Both the position numbers and the translations under genes were made by a program. A stretch of 64,000 nucleotides of DNA. It comes from Rhodotorula mucilaginosa. Lineage: Eukaryota > Basidiomycota > Microbotryomycetes > Sporidiobolales > Sporidiobolaceae. The notes under the pieces were generated by a model that saw only the letters and a program-made list of their open reading frames with translations, did no database searches and had not been told where the DNA came from. The stretch's first letter is position 1. Each line of letters starts with the position of its first letter. The stretch lies in assembly GCA_034406715.1 (NCBI GenBank), contig CP137868.1, positions 1,240,001 through 1,304,000 on the forward strand, read 5' to 3'. Below are positions 27,316 through 64,000 of this stretch, one piece after another.

Positions 27316-29521
27316 TCAGTTACCCAACTTCGCCAATGAGAGTTGCCGTTTCTTCTCTTCCTCCCTCCGCCGCCGTTCCCGCTTCTTGCTGCGCTTCTCC
27401 TCCTTCCGTAACAAGTCGAACCGCCTTGCCTCTCGTCGAGCTTTGCGTTCGAGCTTCTCCGCGCGGCGCAAAATCTCGGCGACGCTGAACTGTTCGAGCC
27501 GGCTTTCGCGGACTTTTTTCGGGCGGCGCTTCTTCTCCTTCTTGCCCGGGCCTTCTTCCTCTTCCGGGGGCGAGGAGACCATCTGCGTCGTTGCTACTGC
27601 GGCGGTGGCGGCGGCATGGTCGACAGGCGCAATGAGCTCGTTCGTGCGAGATGTCGGATCAGGGAGGGAAGAAGGAGGTGGCGAGAGGTAGTAGGCCTCT
27701 GCGGCTCGCTCGTGATCCGAATCGGGAACGAGCTGCAGCTCCTTCTCCTCCTCCTCCTCCTCCTCCTCCTCCTCCTCCTTCGTCTTCTTCTTCTCCTGCG
27801 CAACGATGGGGGATTGCGCGCCCGCCTCGGCGGGGCGCTGGCGTTTCTTCGGGCGCGGATAACACAGAGGCTGGGTCGATGCTGCTCGTTTCGGGCTTGG
27901 TCGTGCGGGACTGGGATCCAGAGCGGGGAGATCTTTTGCGGGCTTCAGAAGAGGTGAAGAACTCGGCGGCGGCGTCGGCGGGAGCGAGATTCGCGAGATC
28001 GGCTCGAGGGTGGTGAGAGAATGAAGCAGTGGGGGTGATTCGGTGGAGGAGGAGGTCTGTGTAGTATTTAAAGGTGAGGGGGATGATTTCGGCGGCGGCG
28101 GCGTCGACGGCGGCGTCGAGGAGGGAAGAAATGCGTCGAGGAGGTTGGTGAAATGTTGGGCAAAGACTTCGGTGTCGCCGAGAACTGGGCGTGCGCGCGT
28201 GAGCAGGTCAGCAGGGTATCACAGAAGCGAATGGAGGATAGACTTGAAAGCAAGCTCACAATGGTAGTCAAAGACGGCATTCCATTCTTTCGAAACCGCT
28301 TCGCGATTGACCAAGACGCAAAAGCCGCCTTGCTGCCGGACGGCTTTGGAGAAGTCCTTGACCAAGCTCCGAAAGCCCGGTATTCGAAGGCTCGTACCCG
28401 CGACGATGAGGCACGTCGGACCGGCAGCGAGGTCGGCGTCGGCGATGGAAGAGATGTGACTCGCCGCGGAGGAAGAGGCAAAGGACGGGTCGTCGTAGAG
28501 GACGATGGCGGGGCGGAGGAACGCGAGTTGGGAAGGGTTGATGGCGCGTTTCGACTCGAGTTTGCGCGATTGGGCTGTACACGTAGGCGGGTCAGTTGTC
28601 ACGGTAGACGGTTCGAATCGATGGCAAGAAGGGGGGGACGCACCTCGCCCGTAGCAGATCGGGCACTTTTTCGCTCGGCCATTCTTGAAGGCGATGGTGT
28701 GACGCTTCTTCCATTCCGTCGTGTGATGGCATACACTGCAACTGACGTGGTCCAGCGAACCGTGCAAGGCGACGACGAGGTCCGGCGCAGAAAACTGGTG
28801 TCGGTGAGGCGTATCTGTGGTGACGTTGACGCGGCCGCCGCCTGACGTTCGTGATCGTGTGAGACGCGGGGTAGATGGACGGTTGGACGGCGTGTCGGCA
28901 GGAGTCGTGGCCAGGGAAAGCAGTCCCGTCGCCGCCTCGACGCCGTCGATGTTCTGCGTGTACACGCGCGCCAGCCTGCCCCGGTCCGCCAAGCCCTTCA
29001 TGAGCCCATGAAAAGCAGTCGGTACCGGTTCGCTGCTGCTGTTCACCCCTTCGACGACGGGTGCACAGTCCTCCTGCTGCCGTCGTTTGCCGTCCTTCAC
29101 CGCTCGTTTCGCGGCCTTTCGCAGCTCGAGCATGAGCTGAAAGTGCTCGGCGCGGGAATCGGGGCGGAGGATCGCATCGTAGTGGAAGAGTTGCTTGGTG
29201 CGGCGCGCTGACCGCGTCAGTGTCAGACGCGGATCTGTGTTTGTTGAGTGAGCGAGGGTGGGGGACCGAGAAGGTGAAGCGCTGTACACGCTCCCACAGC
29301 CTCCGCGAAAGTCCTGCGGGCATTCGAGGGTCAGCACTCGGGTCTTGGGAGGCAGCTCCACGGTCTGCTCGCACCGGTATGCCCGCAGCGGTCGAGATTC
29401 CCGCGCCGACGCCCAAGACGACCTGGGTCTGATCCGAAGCGACGTGCATAGCCAACGCGGCGAGCGCTTCGAGCGTGACGGCACTCGTAGAGGCATAGCT
29501 ATCCAGCGGGAGGCTCAGCAT
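27316..29521 (-). CDS. HST4: Sirtuin, HST3/HST4-type NAD-dependent deacetylase
   Basis: In yeasts HST3/HST4 remove acetyl from histone H3 Lys56. Exons 29375-29521, 29290-29313 (24 nt), 28644-29193, 28260-28574 and 27316-28184 give 634 aa. Seen: NAD site GVGAGISTAAGIPDFRG (residues 37-53), YTQNIDGVE, catalytic His in VALHGSLDHVSC, zinc pairs CSVC and CPIC, VAGTSLRIPGFRSLVKD and the late strand GGFCVLVNRE. The last exon adds a tail of about 270 residues that is Pro/Ser-rich, then has a glutamate run (CTC repeat 27745-27779) and a Lys/Arg/Glu-rich helix near the end. The tail looks nuclear and charged. Assignment to HST3/HST4 rather than HST2 rests on the short GISTAAGIPDFRG-LF region and is less certain than the sirtuin call. 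Confidence 0.88.
27745..27779. repeat. CTC triplet repeat (polyglutamate codons on - strand)
   Basis: A run of about eleven CTC/GAG triplets in the C-terminal tail of the sirtuin gene. The frame is kept on the minus strand as glutamate. Confidence 0.85.
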
Positions 29522-32571: not shown

Positions 32572-33983
32572 ATGGCTGATCAAGCTGAAGCTGAAGCTGC
32601 TGCCAGGTCCCGCATTATCTCGGCACACGAGCACCTGCTTGACCTTGCGCACTACGAAAGGGTGCTTGGCGCTGCGCTGCCAAAGCCTCCCTCAAAAGCT
32701 GCAACCTTGATCAGAAGCGCCCGCACAACCTTGTCAGGGGCCTTGCGATGCCTCAATAACTGTACTGGGTTGACAAGAACATTTAACCAGACTGGCGAGT
32801 GGCTCGAGCAGAGACACAATGCCTTGACATCAGCTGCGGACACTGGAACATCTCTCCCCTTCGATATCTTGCTGTTGGGCCTTGTGAGTTGCAGCGCTCA
32901 CCACCTCCCTTGACTGTATCTGTCTATTTAACATCTGCCATTTATAGATGACGCTGAACCTGCCGCTCTTGCTTCGGCAGCTTGTGGGTGCCATTCTGTG
33001 ACTTGTGGATCCTGTACTGATGCACTATCTTGCAGGGTGCGGACGTGCCTCTGATTGACATTGAATTTGCAGAGAAGCAACTTCAAAATGCGCGGGCTTT
33101 GGTCAACACAAGATATGACACGCCTCGTGGGGCCGGAAAACAGTATGACCAATGGGACCAGCAAATCGAGGTTCTGCAAAATCTGTTCAAGACCAAGATG
33201 ACAAGTCAACAGCATGTCATGTTGGGAATTCGGGCACAGCTGGTGACCTGGGCACAGACCTCGCCGGATCTGATGGCCAAGGAGGTGTTTTGTGCACTGC
33301 CAGTCCTTGCGCAGCGGGGGCTTATCGAGATCCTCAACCGCCTCTACAAGGTGTTGGAACCGCTCATGGCAGAGAACGAATGCGAGAAGGCGCTTGACCT
33401 CCTGGTAAGAGTTTGAAAGAGCCTGTACAATACCCAGCTTACACTGTGCAAGGTCTTGCAGAAGCAATGGCCAATGCGCCGCCTGATCACCCGAACAGTA
33501 TGCCCTCTACCTCTTACTCTGCATCACTGATCCAGGCTGTGGGCTGATGCGCTTTTCCCGCTGCCCCCGGCTGACCAACTTGTGCAGATGTATACCTTGG
33601 AGATGGTTCACCACTGCACCACTCGTAGCCACCAGGACACTCGGACACTTGAGGAGTTGTCGAGTGACGCAAAGAATCCGCGGTACTTTGCCGCCCTAGA
33701 TCTGCCGCATTCTATCCCTCAACACCCGAATGAAGCGAACATCCAGTTGCCCCGTCACCTGCAACCGGTCCCGAGCCCGGTCGCACCCCGGTCTGCAGAT
33801 TTCCCACCACGCCTTCGTATCGCAGACCTCATCCACCCTCCAGAACAGCACCAGCAGGATTCGCTCGGCACTGAACCTCCCATGGGCATTGGCCATCGCG
33901 CCGCACGCCACTATGGCGTCAATGCAGCTGACTGGAAGCTGCGAGCGCGGCAGCGTTGGGACTTGCAAGAAAAGGACTCTTGA
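32572..33983 (+). CDS. Paralog A of an undescribed three-member family
   Basis: Five exons, 32572-32883, 32948-32983, 33036-33404, 33462-33497 and 33588-33983, all joined in phase 0, give 382 aa. Exons 2 and 4 are exactly 36 nt (MTLNLPLLLRQL; KQWPMRRLITRT). No signal peptide or TM helix is evident; exon 1 is helical and ends SLPFDILLLGL, exon 3 is helical with FCALPVLAQRGLIEILNRLY, and exon 5 has a variable Pro-rich centre and ends HRAARHYGVNAADWKLRARQ RW. The same architecture and motifs recur in the genes at 57774-59188 and 59805-61244. Codon third positions are mixed, unlike the strong C/G bias of flanking genes. I do not recognise the family and propose no function. Confidence 0.8.
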
Positions 33984-43336: not shown

Positions 43337-46300
43337 TTAATCGACGGTGACGACCTCGACGTTTTCCTTCTCGTGCAACTCGAGCTGCTCGACCATCACG
43401 CCCAGAGCCAGCCACGCCCAAGTCCGCAACCCAAGAATCCGCTCCGACGCCCTGCCGCCGCCCACCTTTGCACCCTGATCGACGCGGAGTGCCTTGGTTC
43501 TGTCTTCTCCTTCTTGCACCGCCGCGTGCCAAGCCGCCCATCCGTTCAGGGCTTTGTCGAGGGTGGACAAGGGCGCGGCGGATTCAGCCGGCCTGCTGGG
43601 TCCTTCGAGGATGACCTTACGGATGACCTCGAACAACTTGACAGCTTGCTCTTGTCGGCGGCTCGACTCGGCGCGGTCACTTTGCTGGAGACGGCGGCTG
43701 CCGAGCGAGACCGAGAGGAACAAGGCCTCCTCTGACAAGTCGTCCTCCTTGCGGCGCGTTGGATCGGTGACGAGTTTCAAGAGTTCGGCCGACAAGGACG
43801 GCAAGAAGCGGCGATAGTGGTTGATCGCGCTCGGAGGTGGGTTCTTGACGTCGGGCACGTCCAAGGGTCCGGTGAAGGCAGCCAACATGGTCGCGATCGA
43901 TTTGGTGAGCGTCCGCAGCGGATCGGCATCAAAAGGCGAATCGAATGGCGAAGAGACGTGAGCGCTCGTGTTGCCGACAGCGCGGTACAGCTGACCGAGC
44001 GCTTTTGTCGAACGGTAGCTGTCGGCTGCGCTGTCGGTCAAGAAGTCGGGCCAGCCTCGCGCAGGTGGTTTCGGGATGTCATGGAAGGCGACAAAAGTGC
44101 CGCTCTTCTGAGCGTCGACGCAGTCGGCTGCGGGGAGCGGGCGGGGAATCAGTTCTGCCGGTCTCGAGCGGTGGAGTGTCCGACGCACAGTGTTGCTGAG
44201 CAAGCTTGAGGCAATCCGGATGGAAGAGTCCTTCCGGATGAGCGTCAGCGAGGAGCAATTGGCGGATCGCAACCACGCCAGTCAGATCTGATGTCAAGTC
44301 TGCGTGACGCGAGGCGACTCGTCAGAGGGGTCTGCAGCTCTAGAATACGGCTGGAAACCGAAAAAGTCTCACACTGGAAGAAGAAATCCGCGCCGTCTTT
44401 GACCTCGACAGGGCGATCGAGCTTGACGACAGGAGCAGCGTCGTATGCAGCCGGCTCGACGATGCAGTCGTCGGCAGGAACCAGACCGCTGGCTTCGGTC
44501 AGAAGCAGGTAAACATCTCCGTCCAGGTCGCCGCCGGCGAGTTTGGAAGGCAAAGACCGCGATCCTGGGTTTTATCGAAGCGGCGTTAACGACTGCGGGT
44601 CCTTGAGAAAGATGCAGAAGACACGCACCTTGACTGGAAAACACAACGCAATTGTGCAGTCCGCGAATCCGTTCGCCAATGCCGAGAGGCAACCTCCCGA
44701 CCGCTTGCACGATCCGGCAATCTCCCGGATGATTAGTCGGACTACGCGAGATGGCGATCCGCCCCGAAACGTATTCGACCCTCCCGTCTCCGTGCACCAT
44801 CTTGGCGTAGATCTCGTCGGGACCGAGGCATTCGTCGACGTCGAGGACTCCGACGAGGTTGTAGCAACCGGGAAGCGGAATTCGGCCCGAGTGCTTGATC
44901 TCGCGCAAGGCATGGGTGACAGCCGCGTCGAGGCATCGCGAGACAAAAGGGTTAGCGAAAGCGGCGCCGCGAGTCACCGAGTGCCGAGCAAGGTAGTCGA
45001 GGGTCCGGGTAAAGTGCGTTGCGGGAGCGAGACTCCAGTCTCGGAGCAGCACGATCGCCGACGCGAGCGCGGTACGAGAATTCGTGATCTTTGCCGTCGC
45101 TTGCGCTTGCAGCTTCAAGAATTGTCGCGGATGGATTCCGAGATCCTCTAAGAGCTTGATCAGCGGTCGATTGAGGAAGCCCGGTCCGGCGGAAAAGGTG
45201 CCGGCGATCTCGAGACGGGTGCGAGAGCTCTGGAACTTGACCTGGCTCGGTCGGAGGGCGATGGTCCGTTGCTTCATCGCTGGATCGACCTGGACCATTC
45301 CCTTGGCTCCGCCGAGGCGGATCTGGAAACAGGTCGGCGGGGATTTGTGCGAGGCCGAGCTGGGAAAGAGCGTGCTGCTGACGCGTTCAGCCAGCTGGAC
45401 TGAGATGAGACCGACGCCGTCGCTGAAGATAGATCCGGAATGCGAGACCACATCGTCGATGGCGAGGATGCGCTTCTTCTTCAGCTCGATGCTGGGTTTC
45501 GACGACGTGAACGCCTGCGAGATCCGGGCAAAGTACTTGGCCGGGATCAGAGCGGTCTCTGTTCCCGTAAAGTCTCCGATGTCTTGATGGATGAGTTCTG
45601 GAGTGACGGCTTTGCCGCCGTCGGCGGCGGTGAACGGCGACATGAAGAAGCAAGTTCCGGTCTTCAAGCCGGACGACGACCACGCGAGAAAGGACCACGA
45701 ACGTCCCCCAAGGTCAAATCCCTGGCGCATGAGAGGCTGAAACCGGTTCGAGATGATGGACGAGTCGCCTTCCCGAAGTCTCTGCCCGTCCTCCTGGCGA
45801 AAGGTGACGGTCAGGAAGCAATCGGGGCGGGCGTAGGTCCGAACGATCGTGTTCGAGTCGGCCAAAACCGGTCCCGCCAGAAGGATACACGTCGGAGTTA
45901 CGGTGAGGGACCTTGCGAGCTGCAGGTCATCGGCGGTGGCGCTCAAGCGGTTAAAGGTGGAAGAACCGTCGGTCGCGCGGCGAAGAAGCGTTCGGAGCTC
46001 TTCGACCGAGGTTTGCGCCGCTCGCATCGCCTTGAGACCGCGCAAATACGGCAAGGCAGCTCCGACGATGATGACGGCGTCCGGGTCGTTGTCGGAGGAG
46101 GAGGAGTCGGAATCAGAATCGTCGAGGATGATCTCGTCCAAAGACCGCTTTTGGCCTGCGACTTGCTCGGAGGGTGTTGTAGTGGCGGCCTCGAGCGTCC
46201 GTACGCAATTATCGAGACTCGAGAGACTGTCGGCGAAGAAGGCGAGCACACGCTCCGCTTCGCGCACGCCCTTGTCCTCGACGAGGTCGTCGACTTCGGG

Positions 46301-47161
46301 TCGGAGCTGCATCACCTTGATGGCATCGAGCAGCCCGTTCCGAACGAGTTTCTCGAGCTGGAACGCAACGCGGAAATCCAAGGTTGCCAACCAGCTCTGG
46401 AAAAGCGCCAAGGTCGTCTCGTCGTGACGGCGCGTCGACTCGACCGATATGTTGTGGGCGATCACGCGCGGCAACCCTGCCGACGGTGCGCCCTTCATGA
46501 AGCTGGTAAAGTCGCGTCGCGTCCTGAACTCGATCATGAGTTCGCGGCTTGCGTAGCCGACCACGAGCGAGTGCTCATCATCGAAAAAGCCGACCTGCTG
46601 TCCCTTCGGTCGCTGCGAGTGGCCTCCGGCGGCAACGGTCTCGAAGAGAGGCGGGCGAGAGAGCGAGAGCAAAAGTCGAGTCCCGCCGGGTGCCGAATGA
46701 CACTGGTCGACCGAGTCCACCGCGACCGTGATTCGAATGCTCGAAGCCTTCGTCGCTTCGACAGAGAACGAGTCTTCGTCCCACAACCGTATCACGAGCG
46801 TCTTCATCGGGTTCGGGCGCTTCTTCGTCTCCGAGAAGAAGACCCGGTCGACGCCGCGAGCAGCCCTGGTCCATTCGGGGCTGAAAGACGCGGCCGCGCT
46901 GCAAACGCCGAAAGAGATTGAGCGGATCGAAATGTCGGACGGTCCCTCGACCGGTGCTGCTTGGTTCGGCGTCGCTCGACTTTGATAATCTGTCGAAACG
47001 CGACGCAAGTTGGGGCGGCGCATTTCGAGGTGCACGTCGTCGTCGTCCGACTCGCTCTGCGACGGAGCAGCAGCGATGCCAGCAGCCTGAGTCTGCTCGT
47101 GGCGAGCAGCAAGCAGCGCACTCGAGGCGGAAGCTCGGGGAGGAACTTTCGAGTTCGCCAT
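43337..47161 (-). CDS. RNA-dependent RNA polymerase (RNAi, QDE-1/RDR type)
   Basis: Cellular RdRP that makes double-stranded RNA for silencing. Exons 44629-47161, 44373-44564, 44189-44299 and 43337-44127 give 1208 aa. The catalytic loop LAGGDLDGDVYLLL carries the three aspartates (D857, D859, D861). Around it are family features: FQIRLGGAKGMVQVDP, LAIDDVVSHSGSIFSDGVG, LPGCYNLVGVLDVDECLGPD, GRIAISRSPTNHPGDCRIVQ, LHNCVVFSSQGSRSLPSKL, then TSDLTGVVAIRQLLLADAHP and EGLFHPDCLKLAQQH, and DAQKSGTFVAFHDIPKPP. The N-terminal third is less conserved. The catalytic core is intact, which argues for a working RNAi pathway in this organism; no Dicer or Argonaute lies in the window. It is convergent with the histone deacetylase gene, with under 100 bp between. 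Confidence 0.95.
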
Positions 47162-47493
47162 CGTCGTATCTCCCCCCGACTAGAGGCTGTGCGCACCGCC
47201 GCGGAGCAAACGAGATCGGACGTCCGCCGCGGGGAGAACGCGCACACGCACGTGCGTACGGACGTGCTGCGGCCACAGGAGCGTGCGGCCACGCGCCGTA
47301 CAGAGTCCTCTTTGGTGTCTATAGCTCGGAAAGCAGCTTATGATGCGAGAGTAGCGAGAAAGAGGAGCAGCTGTCGACGAGACAAAAGGAAATTTTCGGG
47401 TGTCACGTGATCGTCGTTCAATCGATCTCGCGATGAGCGCGCACTACATACTGAGTGCAAGAAGCGTCTTTCCAAGATACACAGTGAGAAGGA
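47162..47493. other. RdRP promoter / 3' side of RBM5-like gene
   Basis: 332 bp between two minus-strand genes. No gene or repeat seen. Confidence 0.4.
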
Positions 47494-57773: not shown

Positions 57774-59188
57774 TCAATCGGTCTCGTAGTAATGCTGCTG
57801 AGCACCCCATCGCCTCATCGCCTCCGCTGCCCATCTGTCTGCATCAATGCTGTACGCTGCGGCTGCCCGTCGACCGATGCGCGGTTCGCCACCGAGGTTG
57901 TGGTATCCATTTTGCGGCCCGGGCTCCGGTGGCCACCTGTAAGCGGCGAGATTGACCGCGCCGTGTATACTCAGTGGGCCACTTGTGGCGAGTGGCTGCT
58001 GGGGCTGAAGGGATGCGTGGGGAACCGGGAGAGTGCTTTGTGGCTGAGGCGAAGCCCAGGGTACAGGAAATGTGTAGAAGTACGCTGGGTCTGCTGGGTT
58101 GCTTGACAGCTTCTCCAGCGTGGACCCAGGCGTGAAGACTTGAGTAGAGCAATGACGCGCCGCATGCAAGGTGTTATTCTGCATTGTGCAGTCAGGATTG
58201 AAAGCAAGTGAGCAGAGCGTCACCTCGTATGTAAAGCAGCACACGGAATGCACGACATACTGTTCGCTCAATCATGCGCTCCATGGTCCAGTACTCCTGT
58301 GAAGGATTACAGATTGTCAAGCAGGGAAGGAATGGAAACACAGGCTGTACTGAGCTCTTACCACCATGTTCAAAGCCTCTGCGTACCGGTACTGGGCGAC
58401 AAGCCTACTCAACACGTCACACAAGACGCAAAGAACTTCAATGAGTCCGCGTTGCGCAAGACTTGGCAGCGCGCAAAATTTCTGCTCGGTCATTGCAGAT
58501 GTGGACCTCTTTTTCAAGGCATCAAAGCGTTGAGTGACATGCTCCGGCATATGTTGTTGACTTGCTAGTATGTGTAGTCGGTCAGTTTGCTCAAGCCATT
58601 GAAAGTACTGCCCGCTGGCTCCTCGCTGTGTTTCGTAGGTTTTCTCGGCGAGTGCCCGCGCCTTTTCGAGGTTTTTACCTGCCAGGCTAACGTCACCCGA
58701 ACGCATATGTACACCCTACGTAGAAGCGCATCAGTACACGGGGCTTAAATGCGCAGGATGACACATACAAAGTCTTCGAGCAAGAGTGGCAGGTTCAGCG
58801 GTATCTGCACAAGACAAACGTCAAACGAACAGTCAAGAAAAAGGACACGATTTGTTGTGCAACTTACCAGGCCCAAAAGCAAGATGTCAAAGGGAAGAGC
58901 GGTCCCTGTATCGGCAGCTGCTTTTAAGGCAGTGTACCGCTGCCCGAGCCAATCACTGATCTTGACCAAGTCCGAAGTCCGTGTCACAGAACCTCGGTTC
59001 AAGCAACGAAGTGTCTTTGACAATATGTCTTCGGCAATGGTGTATACGCTCTTGAGTTTGTGTGCAGGCTCGGGTAGCGGAGAGCCAAGGACGGTCTCGT
59101 AGCGCACAAGGCTGACAAGTTGGCGGTGTTCTGAGAGCACGCGGGACCGGGCGGCGACCTCGTCCTCAGCCTCAACTCGAGTCCCCAT
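57774..59188 (-). CDS. Paralog B of the three-member family
   Basis: Exons 58868-59188, 58769-58804, 58362-58715, 58261-58296 and 57774-58178, all phase 0, give 383 aa, almost the same length as paralog A. Exon 1 has AARSRVLSEHRQLVSLVRYE, LRCLNRG and AADTGTALPFDILLLGL; exon 2 is IPLNLPLLLEDF; exon 3 has FCALPSLAQRGLIEVLCVLC; exon 4 is EYWTMERMIERT; exon 5 has ARHCSTQVFTPGSTLEKLSS and ends GGEPRIGRRAAAAYSIDADR W. Each short exon aligns with its counterpart in A and C. No signal peptide, TM helix or known domain. It lies head-to-tail upstream of nothing but paralog C on the same strand, so B and C form a tandem pair. Mixed third positions set it apart from TOP3 next door. Confidence 0.8.
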
Positions 59189-59804
59189 CGCGTGGCAAAT
59201 ACGGATCAAGGGAATACAAGCGGAAGAGCTCTAGAGGTGGTCGTGGCTCCGGGTTTGCGCGTTTGCGGCGCGGACAAGCCGCGGACACCGAGGGCGGGCT
59301 GTCATAAGCCACGCGCGACGGGGCACGCGGACGAGCGCACTTCGGCATCGAGCGTGTGGCTTGGTACCGCGTGGAAAGCCGCACAGACGGGGAGCTTGGC
59401 GATGCACAAGGCGCAAATGATATCGGAACTTGAAGGCGAGAAAAGGACCTCACGTTGACCGTAAGGATCATTCAGCCGCAAATATCTGTGGAGTATGGGT
59501 TGCCTGCGCTGCATGCAGTGACATCTAAAGCTGTATGCTTGAAAGTCTAGTCTACACGGACTTGATCATAGCCGAGGGTGTCATGACCTTCTCAAACTGC
59601 CGCAAGGTTTCCTTGTGCTTTCGTCCGCGTTTCAAGCGCGTTAATCCAAGGAATGAAGTATCGCTCTCGCACTGCAAAGCAGTTCTAATAATTGCCTCTA
59701 TGCTTGTCCAATCAGTCTCGGAAGGTCGCAAGCGATTATTTGCAGTTGTGTAGATAAACAGCCAGGAAGAAGGAAAGGGTCAGCTCTAACAAGCTAAAAG
59801 GTCC
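59189..59804. other. Intergenic between paralogs B and C
   Basis: 616 bp holding the upstream DNA of B and the downstream DNA of C. Short open frames on both strands have no counterpart in the family exons, so there is no sign of a fourth broken copy here. Confidence 0.45.
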
Positions 59805-61244
59805 CTATGGCAGGCCCCAGCGCTGCTGGGCTCTCCAGTTCCACTCAGCTACATCAACACTGTAGCGACGTGCGGCGCGACGGCTGATGCGAGGCTCGCT
59901 GCCGAGCGAGTGCGCGCCCCCCGTCGGTTGATCCGATCCAGGATCTTCGAGGAGCGCCGAAATGCGCATCCGCTCACGACCCGACGGTACAGATGTAGAA
60001 GCGTTTTGGTCCACTTGCGGATGCGCAGTGGGCAATCCGAGGTTCGCATTGTCGGGCCGGTGCTGGAGCAATGGGCAGGGCACAGGTGGCGGCCAGAAGT
60101 ATTCGGGGTTCTGCGGGTCGCTTGACAACATTTCGAGGGTAGAAGTGCCATTGATGGGCGGGGTGGTGCAGTGACGGGCCATGTTAAAGCTCTCCATCTG
60201 CATCAGCCGGTCCACAAGGGATTAGAAAAGCATCAGCAAACATTCCAATCATCCAGCGGGATAACGCTCCAAGTCCAAGCAGAGAGACTTTGATATACCG
60301 TGCGCTCAATCATGCGCTGCATAGTCCAGTACTCCTGCAAAGCCCCACGCGTTGTCAGTGGAAAGTGGAATAGTGGAATAGTGGGATAGAAACCCGGATT
60401 TGTTCTAGCTCTCACCAACAGAGAGAGAGTCTCGTTGTATTGTTTTTCCGCGACAAGCGAGTTCAGCACTTGGTGCAGGAGGTGAAGGACTTCCGCAATC
60501 CCCCAGTATGCGAGAATCGGGAGTTGGTGGTGACAAACTTTTTCCACCTCAAGCTCGCAGGCAACGAACCAGTCCTGCAGGCGCTTCTTGTCTTGTTCCT
60601 CCAGTAGGTGACGCTCGAGAAGCGTGTGTATTTGTCGACAGCCTTTGAGGACTCCCTTCTTCCGCCCGCCCCAATCGGCAGACGGTCTCGTGACAACAAG
60701 CGCTGCGCGTGCTCGGTTGATCCATTCATCCGCTCTTCCGAAGGCTTCATAACGCCATTGCCCACTCTCAGCCTGTGGAGAGTGCTTGTCATCATGAGGT
60801 TACACCAAGAGAGCACATGTATGCAAGTTTAGACTCGCGTGCAAGAAGCAATGCCCGAGGTTTTCGAGGAGTCTCGGCAAGCTGAGCGGTGCCTGGACAG
60901 AGGCAGTGTCAGCTTGGTCCTCAGGAAAGCGCAGGGACGCCGTGACTTGCGATACCTAGCACCAGAACGTCAAAGCGCAGCGCTCGCCCGTCATTGAGGG
61001 CGGTCTTGAGAGAGTCGAGCCTCTGCTTCAGGCATTGCCACACACTGCCCACGAATTTGTGTGACGCGACGAGGTTCAGGCAGCAGATTGACTTGAACCA
61101 ATCCTGCTCCACCGCCTTGATCCGGTTCCCTTCCGTCAGCGTCGGTTTCGGATACGGTTCTTTGTGCTCAGGTTGATCCCAGACGAGCTCGAACAGCGCG
61201 ACAAGCTGTTCTTGGATGTCATTGAGGCGAGGTTCAGCAGCCAT
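59805..61244 (-). CDS. Paralog C of the three-member family (two unusual exon ends)
   Basis: Likely exons 60951-61244, 60857-60892, 60416-60772, 60299-60334 and 59805-60197; about 371 aa. Exon 1 ends ALRFDVLVLGI, exon 2 is APLSLPRLLENL, exon 3 has ADEWINRARAALVVTRP and LPILAYWGIAEVLHLLHQVL, exon 4 is EYWTMQRMIERT and exon 5 has ARHCTTPPINGTSTLEMLSS and ends SEPRISRRAARRYSVDVAEW, so every family block is present. C is the most divergent in exon 1. Two joins lack a GT donor at the homologous place: after LGI the bases are GCAAGT (a possible GC-AG intron), and after ENL there is no GT or clear GC donor, so the exact end of exon 2 is open. The gene may use shifted sites or may be starting to decay; the long exon 3 is fully open. 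Confidence 0.65.
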
Positions 61245-62174
61245 CTGTCTCGTGGGTTCGGATATGGCCAAGAGGGCTGAAGGGAAAGACAAGGACGACA
61301 GGAAGACGCGCGATCGTGCGACACCTGCGACGCGAACCTTTATCCGGTCCGCGGAGGTGCGTGCGAGAATGCTGCGGACACCGAAGGCGTGACGTACTCC
61401 GGAGCACGAGGAACCTGCGAATTTGCTTCGAATAGCTCTACTTATAGCAGCAACATCGATCGCAAGCGGCTGCGACAAGCATGGGCGACGTCGATGCAAA
61501 GCAGAATAACGATTCCGACGAAGCTGGGCCAGAGCGCTGAGGGCCGGGATAGCTCGCCCGGGTGGCAGAGGACGCGGTGTACGCGCATCCAAGCAGTAGC
61601 AGCTAGTCGGCATGTCTAGCACACGACTACATAGAGCCACCCTCCGTCAGGGAGAGGGAGAGAGAGGGAGAGAGAGGGAGAGAGAGAGGAGCCCCACTCG
61701 ACGTGCTTCCGCGCGACGCCTCGAGCTCAAATTGAACAAGCTGAATTGGATTGGGCGGAGCTATACTTGCCCATAGGCTCGCTGCTGCACGCTAGCAGTG
61801 TAGGCTAACAGCCGCACTCTTACCGCCTCCGCTACGCACCTGACTCGGTACGTTCCCGGAGTCGTCAACCCAATCCTCGACGAGTCAATGGCGATCCATG
61901 TCGGAGAACGAGCCCATGCACAACGCCGCTCGTTGCGCTAGCAGGCAAGCAGAAGGAGGCAGGAAGACGAGCGGTACTCTGGGGCGCAGTCAGCGCCCAT
62001 GACCGCGGAGGACGAGGCGCCGGCGGACAACCGGATGGCACGGCCAAGTCTCTTTGCCAGGTGGCGAAAACGAGGGACCCAGTATGCACAAGCAGAGCCT
62101 TGTACCTATAAAATGGTCTCGAACTGACCTTCTCCCTGCCGCCCCCCTCGCTGTCACGAAAATAGCCGCGCGAC
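61245..62174. other. 930-bp divergent region (paralog C / FGAM synthase)
   Basis: Contains a GA-rich microsatellite and, around 61770-61850, GC-rich sequence with a partial hairpin that I tested as a tRNA and rejected. The ADE6-type promoter should lie in the last few hundred bases. No gene seen. Confidence 0.45.
61651..61689 (+). repeat. GA/GGGA microsatellite
   Basis: About 39 bases of purine-only GAGAGG-type repeat units between paralog C and the FGAM synthase gene. Such tracts often lie in promoters and vary in length. Confidence 0.85.
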
Positions 62175-64000
62175 ATGCTCGTCCTCGCCGGCGCCTCCGT
62201 CTTCCACCCGCCGCAGCGCGCTGCTCTGCTCGCTCGCGTGCACGCTGCTGCGCCGCAAGTCTCTAGCATAGACGCAGTCTACGTCCACTACGTCGAGGCG
62301 GTCGACGCCGCGGCCGAAAAGGTCCTCGCCGACGCGTCGTCAAAGGAACGCAAGGTCCTCGACGCGCTCCTCAAGTACGGCGACGACTATGCGCTTCCCG
62401 AGACTCGTCCGACGGTCGACGTCGCTCTCGAGACTGGAAACGCCCCCGGCGCCATCTGGGTCGTGCCCCGCGCCGGCACCATCTCGCCGTGGTCGTCCAA
62501 GGCGACCGACATTGCGCGCATGTGCACCCTCGACCAGACCGTCCGCCGCATCGAGCGCGGCCTCGTCTTTGTCGTCAAGGCCGAGCACGACAAGGCGCAG
62601 CGCGTCGCACACCTCAGCGCCGCGGCGCCGCACTTGCACGACCGCATGACCCAAGTCTTGCTCGACCAGAAGCCCGCTTCCAGGTCGCTCTTTGAGCGCG
62701 GCAGTCCCGCACCGCTCAAGACGATCGACCTGAAAGACAAGACCGTCGGGGTCGCTCGCGAGACGCTCGTCCGCGCGAACGTCGAACTCGGTCTCGCCCT
62801 CGCGGGAGAAGAGCTCGATTACCTCGTCGACTCGTTCCTCGCTTCGGCCGCCGCCGGCCGGAACCCGACCGACGTCGAACTCTTCATGTTTGCCCAGGTC
62901 AACTCGGAGCACTGCCGTCACAAGATCTTTAACGCCGCGTGGGTCGTCGACGGTGCGGCCAAGGACAACTCGCTCTTTGGCATGATCCGCAACACCCACA
63001 AGCTCGTGCCGGATCACACCATCTCGGCCTACTCGGACAACGCCGCCGTCATCGACGGTTCAGTCGTCCCTCGCTTCGCCGCCGCGCCTTCGGACGTGAG
63101 CACCGCGCCCGTCTACCAGGCCAAGGAGGAGCACATGCCGATCCTGATCAAGGTCGAGACCCACAACCACCCGACCGCCGTCTCGCCCTTCCCCGGTGCC
63201 GCGACCGGTTCGGGCGGTGAGATCCGTGACGAAGGTGCCGTCGGCCGTGGTTCGCGACCGAAAGCCGGTCTCGCCGGGTTCACCGTTTCCAACTTGCGGA
63301 TCCCGGACTTTGTCCAGCCGTGGGAGACCGACTTTGGTAAGCCGGCGCACATCGCTTCGGCGCTTGACATCATGATCGAAGGCCCGCTCGGTTCGAGCGC
63401 GTTCAACAACGAGTTTGGACGACCGGGCTTGACGGGCTACTTCCGCACCTATGCCGAGGAGGTCCCGACCCTCGACAAGGACGGGAACCGCTCGTCCGAG
63501 ATCCGCGGGTACCACAAGCCGATCATGATCGCGGGCGGTTATGGCAACGTCCGTCCCGAGTTTGCGCTCAAGGACAAGATCACGCCCGGCGCTCGGCTGA
63601 TCGTCCTCGGCGGCCCGGGCATGCTCATCGGTCTCGGTGGCGGTGCCGCGTCCTCGATGGCGTCCGGTTCCTCGTCGGCCGACCTCGACTTTGCCTCGGT
63701 CCAGCGCGAGAACCCCGAGATGCAGCGTCGGGCTCAGCAAGTCCTCGACACGTGCGTTTCGCTCGGCTCGGCGAACCCGATCCAGTCTGTGCACGACGTC
63801 GGCGCCGGCGGTCTCTCGAACGCCCTCCCCGAACTCGTCCATGATGCCGACCTCGGCGGCGTGTTCGAGATTCGCGACGTCCTCGTCGACGACCCCGGCA
63901 TGTCGCCGATGGAGATCTGGTGCAACGAGTCGCAGGAGCGTTACGTCCTCGCTGTCGGACCGGAGGACCTCGCCCGCTTTGAGGCGATTGCACAGCGCGA
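62175..64000 (+). CDS. ADE6: FGAM synthase (phosphoribosylformylglycinamidine synthase), 3' end beyond window
   Basis: Fourth step of de novo purine synthesis: FGAR plus glutamine plus ATP to FGAM. The frame is open without introns from the ATG at 62175 to the window end (608 codons). N-terminal PurS-like domain, then linker ending [18 protein letters not shown], then the first AIRS-type synthase domain with [106 protein letters not shown] and [20 protein letters not shown]. These match the eukaryotic/gamma-proteobacterial large PurL (about 1300 aa). The glutaminase domain lies outside the window. Very strong C/G third-position bias suggests high expression, as expected for a purine enzyme. 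Confidence 0.96.

Follow-up and report, generated by a model that had tools for sequence, protein, structure and literature searches.

Genes B and C belong to an undescribed protein superfamily of Rhodotorula-type yeast. They lie side by side on contig C5, within the 64,000-nucleotide stretch of Rhodotorula mucilaginosa DNA analysed here (C5:1240001-1304000, hereafter the window; positions given without a contig refer to it), and share a conserved C-terminal tail with predicted proteins encoded elsewhere in the genome. It is very likely that the family is both real and undescribed. The best explanation overall, to which we give a probability of roughly one in three, would combine this superfamily with adaptor-like docking of its members and old local duplication of their genes. 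An earlier note on this DNA had proposed a family of three copies, claiming no function for it; the orphan family is genuine, and larger than the note supposed.

Gene models in the window

Gene C (59188-57774, minus strand) encodes 384 aa in five exons, at 59188-58868, 58804-58769, 58715-58362, 58296-58261 and 58181-57774 (stop included). Gene A, which is the dispersed third copy that the earlier note had announced, spans 32572-33983 on the plus strand and encodes 382 aa, with exons at 32572-32883, 32948-32983, 33036-33404, 33462-33497 and 33588-33983. In both genes all introns are in phase 0 with GT..AG ends, and exons 2 and 4 measure 36 nt each. The intron places of gene C also fit two public open reading frame (ORF) pieces, P0005 and P0008, in which introns 1 and 2 are read through. 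Gene B (61244-59805, minus strand) encodes 371 or 388 aa depending on the model of exon 2. Its exon 1 (61244-60951) ends at a GC donor (GCAAGT), exon 2 starts at 60892 and has an uncertain end, and exons 3 to 5 lie at 60772-60416, 60334-60299 and 60197-59805. The tandem pair on the minus strand is thereby borne out, from the ATG of B at 61244 to the stop of C at 57774, and the sequence motifs named for B and C occur in both.

The five-exon plan said to be shared by the pair holds in full for C, and for A; in B one detail of it fails, the 12-residue exon 2. Where that exon had been thought to end in B, its 12th codon is followed by GGGCAT, which is not a usable donor. The next residue is a Gly, with which exon 3 also begins in A and C. 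Intron 2 has therefore probably been lost at its usual place, a change seen in copy F too and, according to the model, in copy G. Read past exon 2 without a splice, the frame runs into a TAA; B must therefore either use another exon-2 splice or be impaired. Two splice candidates avoid the TAA, a GC donor (GCGAGT) at 60838, found by spliced-profile alignment, and a 33-nt intron at 60805-60773. The exon 4 block, described as fixed across the copies, is not fixed in the family either, since exon 4 of gene A reads KQWPMRRLITRT and differs from the block in B and C.

The sequence similarity among the three proteins is far beyond chance. By BLASTP, A and C are 41% identical (E 2.8e-71), B and C 34-35% (best E 8.9e-51), and A and B 32-33% (best E 1.2e-45).

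The copies have ordinary genes between and beside them, such as those for an FGAR-AT (62166-63998, plus strand; E 3e-31) and a Sir2-family protein (28222-29514, minus strand; E 1e-14), as assigned by Pfam. An RNAi gene lies between A and C: a long ORF at 44372-47179 (minus strand) that matches PF05183, the RNA-dependent RNA polymerase domain, at E 8e-102. Four of the ten neighbouring ORFs scanned had no Pfam match at 1e-5. GC is near 0.60.

A ten-copy family on one contig

The three copies in the window are real, and they are part of a larger group. Spliced-profile alignment placed ten copies, A to J, on C5, between C5:1272572 and about 1386202 and thus within 114 kb, with J modelled in part. 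Eight of them form four neighbouring pairs on like strands (C/B, D/E, F/G and H/I); the other two, A and J, are single. TTAGGG-type repeats close the contig, and the cluster lies 57-171 kb from this telomere-like end.

When the genome (20.35 Mb in 19 contigs) was searched with single copies, only the best candidates were scored, and the counts are lower bounds. At least 16 matches were obtained with A, 17 with E, 11 with I and 9 with J, all of those listed lying on C5. Copy B gave at least 16 matches, with two of those listed on C3, and copy F at least 17, with one of those listed on C6.

The whole exon plan, meaning an exon 1 that ends in FDxLxLG, 12-codon exons 2 and 4 and the C-terminal tail, is found in A, C and D. 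Exon 2 has 14 codons in copy E, and B, F and G are without a clean 12-codon exon 2. Copies G, H and I could be aligned only through odd joins; the exons of A, C, D, E and F are open.

Two 307-base repeats, inverted and 77% identical, occupy C5:1397717-1403736, and related pieces occur near 1382854-1383065, some 2.2 kb from J.

A shared C-terminal tail

The best conserved block of the ten C5 copies is a tail of about 32 residues, with a mean pair identity of 0.46 against 0.17-0.38 in seven other blocks. Its consensus over 13 sequences is SLGxEPxLGRRAAxxYGxDRxxW. In gene C the tail, LGGEPRIGRRAAAAY..., is encoded at 57777-57896 (minus strand), in gene B, LGSEPRISRRAARRY..., at 59808-59906 (minus strand), and in gene A, LGTEPPMGIGHRAARHY..., with two extra residues, at 33864-33980 (plus strand).

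Tails were located at 26 places on four contigs, ten on C5, three on C3, two on C6 and eleven on C8. In all 16 places that were read (the ten C5 copies, K, L and M on C3, two on C6 and one on C8) the tail stands at the C-terminus. The evidence for M is a short match, found at E 8e-4 when 283 kb were searched, and the C8 matches range from E 5e-9 to 0.007. Weak matches on C2 (E 0.004, carrying a stop) and C16 (E 0.03) were left out of the count. The eleven C8 matches extend over 220 kb (C8:72865-292492), a second large cluster.

Beyond the tail, the kinship between C5 and C3 fades. A profile of the ten copies matched K and L, for which the gene models are rough, at E 1e-7 with the tail included, and at only 0.72 once the tail, the linker and part of exon 5 were removed. 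This fall indicates that the N-terminal parts of the C5 copies and of K/L are either unrelated or related beyond detection, as far as sequence profiles can tell.

Exon 5 of gene C varies unevenly when set against the public sequence P0003. The two differ at 2 of the first 83 residues and at 18 of the last 52, a contrast reached in 0 of 200 shuffles. The diverged stretch is encoded at 57777-57932 (minus strand), and the tail motif is kept. Such a pattern suggests that recombination or conversion may have taken place near the tail, or that constraint may have been lost there. In the tail of copy E (C5:1326515-1326610, minus strand) a Cys stands where the public sequence P0009 has the usual Arg.

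Known families and public relatives

No Pfam, NCBIfam, PHROGs or PDB family matched convincingly, in line with the earlier view of a protein family without a recognised domain. In Pfam, proteins A, B and C had no family at E<=10 (three of three), nor had any of the 13 tails; five further pieces gave weak matches, none over the curated cut-off, and eight C5 members gave matches of one member only (best E 0.026). The same number of members yielded one weak match in NCBIfam, and weak PHROGs matches came from at most 3 of the 13 tails. Among PDB sequences the family profile stayed at chance level (E 0.29 or worse), as did exon 5 (one match at E 0.076), and the tail had no match. Nothing on this gene family was found within the literature searched.

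A single query with protein C against 5.8 billion proteins returned nothing at E<=1. Two profile searches of the same collection found 12 relatives (seven and five) besides the ORF of the window itself, which indicates that the negative result with C was one of sensitivity. These relatives are unnamed ORF pieces, one of them labelled 'hypothetical protein', and carry no Pfam domains. They match A, C, D, E or J, and none was returned for B, F, G, H or I. Public versions of D, E and J are 98-99% identical over the exon-5 pieces P0009, P0010 and P0011. More distant relatives are P0004 and P0008 (62% to C), P0012 (46% to D) and P0013 (81% to J). The public metagenome relatives keep their reading frames, including relatives of C, D and J in other genomes. 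For exon 5 of C, no relative was found in viral contigs or prokaryote genomes. The family is likely restricted to one lineage, and its description as undescribed and strongly diverged, with members that follow a common exon plan and lack named relatives, still stands. Orphan multigene families as such are common.

Relationships, age and selection

The maximum likelihood tree (272 columns) unites F with G (83% support) and H with I (86%), and groups D, E and J (80%), with D next to J at 68%. Copies A, B and C are set apart from the rest (95%), and among them C joins A rather than its neighbour B (95%). Two of the four neighbouring pairs are therefore sisters in the tree, and each of the four lies inside one clade. 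Pairwise identity among the ten copies is 19-48%. Old local duplication would fit both the tree and these identities. The nearest relative of C, copy A, is 25 kb away, which indicates that copies have also moved within the region.

Rates were estimated by the Nei-Gojobori method in eight pieces. For A/C, dN and dS were 0.37 and 1.19 in exon 1 and 0.54 and 1.58 in exon 3; for exon 3 of D/E they were 0.87 and 1.58. The tails gave 0.26 and 1.98 in F/G and 0.12 and 1.09 in H/I, and K/L on C3 gave 0.20 and 0.48. Exon 5 of A/C and of B/C was undefined. The ratio dN/dS was thus below 1 in six of six computable pieces, and dS was above 1 or undefined in seven of eight, the exception being K/L. With dS mostly saturated, these values point to frames under purifying selection and to duplications that are mostly old. 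At the level of sequence, they show real and apparently old genes rather than a recent burst, and the recent or ongoing expansion proposed earlier is contradicted by them and by the low identities among the ten copies. The description of the family as fast-evolving is apt for its divergence, as seen in public relatives at 62% to C and 46% to D, but all computable dN/dS values are below 1.

Protein features and structure models

Exon 3 of C alone gave a helical model with a mean pLDDT of 75 and a pTM of 0.57, and exon 1 a model with a pLDDT of 61 and a pTM of 0.42, each from three sequences. The fold of exon 3 had no match at E<=0.001 in the PDB (17 at E<=10) or in BFVD (49 at E<=10).

The end of exon 1 and exon 2 form a conserved hydrophobic junction, encoded in gene C at 58769-58897 (minus strand) with an intron between. 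Its best 19-residue Kyte-Doolittle mean is at least 1.6 in six of the ten copies and 1.42-1.58 in the other four. Since the junction holds an invariant Asp and a central Pro or Asn, we infer that it is no less likely to be buried than to lie in a membrane; the value reached in the six copies leaves room for a membrane protein. The linker of A, B and C contains 17-21% proline. By crude hydropathy tests, these three proteins have no hydrophobic N-terminus (best 11-residue Kyte-Doolittle mean 0.73-1.20) and no series of transmembrane segments, with at most one hydrophobic segment each.

A putative docking tail and its rivals

We tentatively propose that the members are intracellular adaptor-like regulators. 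In sequence, a C5 member carries the hydrophobic junction, the proline-rich linker and the constant tail; its N-terminal part would be helical, as suggested by the models of exons 1 and 3 alone. The diverging helical part would meet varying partners, the tail would dock members from C5, C3, C6 and C8 onto one common partner, and the linker would tether the one to the other. The copies would have arisen by old local duplication, some with intron loss. In favour of this proposal we count the exon plan, the conservation of the tail and its C-terminal position, its sharing with C3, the linker, the helical models, the lack of a hydrophobic N-terminus, dN/dS and the public frames. Counted against it are the models, built from three sequences each (pLDDT 75 and 61), the comparison of N-terminal parts, made for C3 with rough gene models, the hydrophobic junction, which would also suit a membrane protein, and the net charge of the tail in C, which is 0.

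The tail could instead be a small DNA-binding helix-turn-helix and the family a set of lineage-specific transcription or chromatin regulators, which we consider unlikely. C5 tails show the residue pattern AAxxYGI(D/N)xxxW, as do helix-turn-helix domains such as HTH_psq, and the run AAxHYGIDxxxW within them has A, G, hydrophobic residue and W spaced as in a helix-turn-helix; several tails also carry basic residues. Yet no profile matched (0 of 13 tails in Pfam at E<=10, and none in the PDB), and B, C, K and L have Ser or Asn instead of the Gly. Moreover, the two C6 tails and the one C8 tail that were read have one residue more between Ala and Tyr, and a helix-turn-helix tolerates such extra spacing poorly. 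We think it rather improbable that the family stems from genetic conflict, as self/non-self recognition or killer-type genes shaped by an arms race. The neighbouring diverged pairs, the strong divergence and the mosaic-like change along exon 5 of C relative to P0003 would suit such a history, but dN/dS is below 1, D, E and J seem all but fixed in the public exon-5 pieces, and the family occupies many dispersed places. Killer proteins of the wtf type are multi-pass, with several transmembrane segments, unlike A, B and C. Basidiomycete mating-type loci, with their homeodomain pair and STE3 receptor, likewise hold clustered, diverged gene pairs. However, homeobox matches lie at C7:869-870 kb and STE3 at C12:498 kb, none on C5, and A, B and C contain no homeobox; a mating-locus role is therefore unlikely, and the mating-type locus was rejected by position.

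Decay, with most copies being relics of little function, has a small probability. It would explain the lack of a clean intron 2 in B, the GC donors, the odd joins in G, H and I and the stop in the C2 tail match. GC3, at 0.53-0.67 in nine copies against 0.63-0.85 in 20 long nearby ORFs, not all of them genes, also favours decay. The dN/dS values, the open exons of A, C, D, E and F and the frames kept by relatives of C, D and J in other genomes speak against it. We disfavour, as very improbable, a domesticated mobile element or virus remains. Many diverged copies in clusters might be expected from these, but the copies share a multi-intron plan, and when 243 kb of C5 and 40 kb of C3 were compared with themselves by BLAST, ten match pairs came out, four between the coding parts of copies and six overlapping no copy. 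A viral origin further conflicts with the results for exon 5 of C in viral contigs and with the fold searches of exon 3. Secreted effectors are hardly credible: fast divergence and clustering resemble effector families, but A, B and C show no hydrophobic N-terminus in our crude test.

In terms of description alone, the C5 family resembles the PHIST proteins of Plasmodium, a lineage-restricted multigene family with one constant and one variable part. In both, one lineage holds a large number of helical members that have diverged and lie in clusters. They differ in that no export signal was seen in the C5 family, whose constant part is a short C-terminal tail.

The docking proposal could be taken further, to a new eukaryotic superfamily in which a constant docking tail sits on several unrelated, drifting helical domains, each with one chromosome cluster, found only in Rhodotorula-type yeasts, with new N-terminal domains recruited to a common partner; it would amount to a modular system of recognition. 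This extension is more speculative than docking itself. If the N-terminal parts are truly unrelated, the family would exemplify how domains are recruited to a constant tail. Few orphan multigene families offer so clean a handle, as the tail marks 26 places on four contigs. A single pull-down with it might identify a common partner, and the gene pairs allow whole groups to be removed in a tractable yeast.
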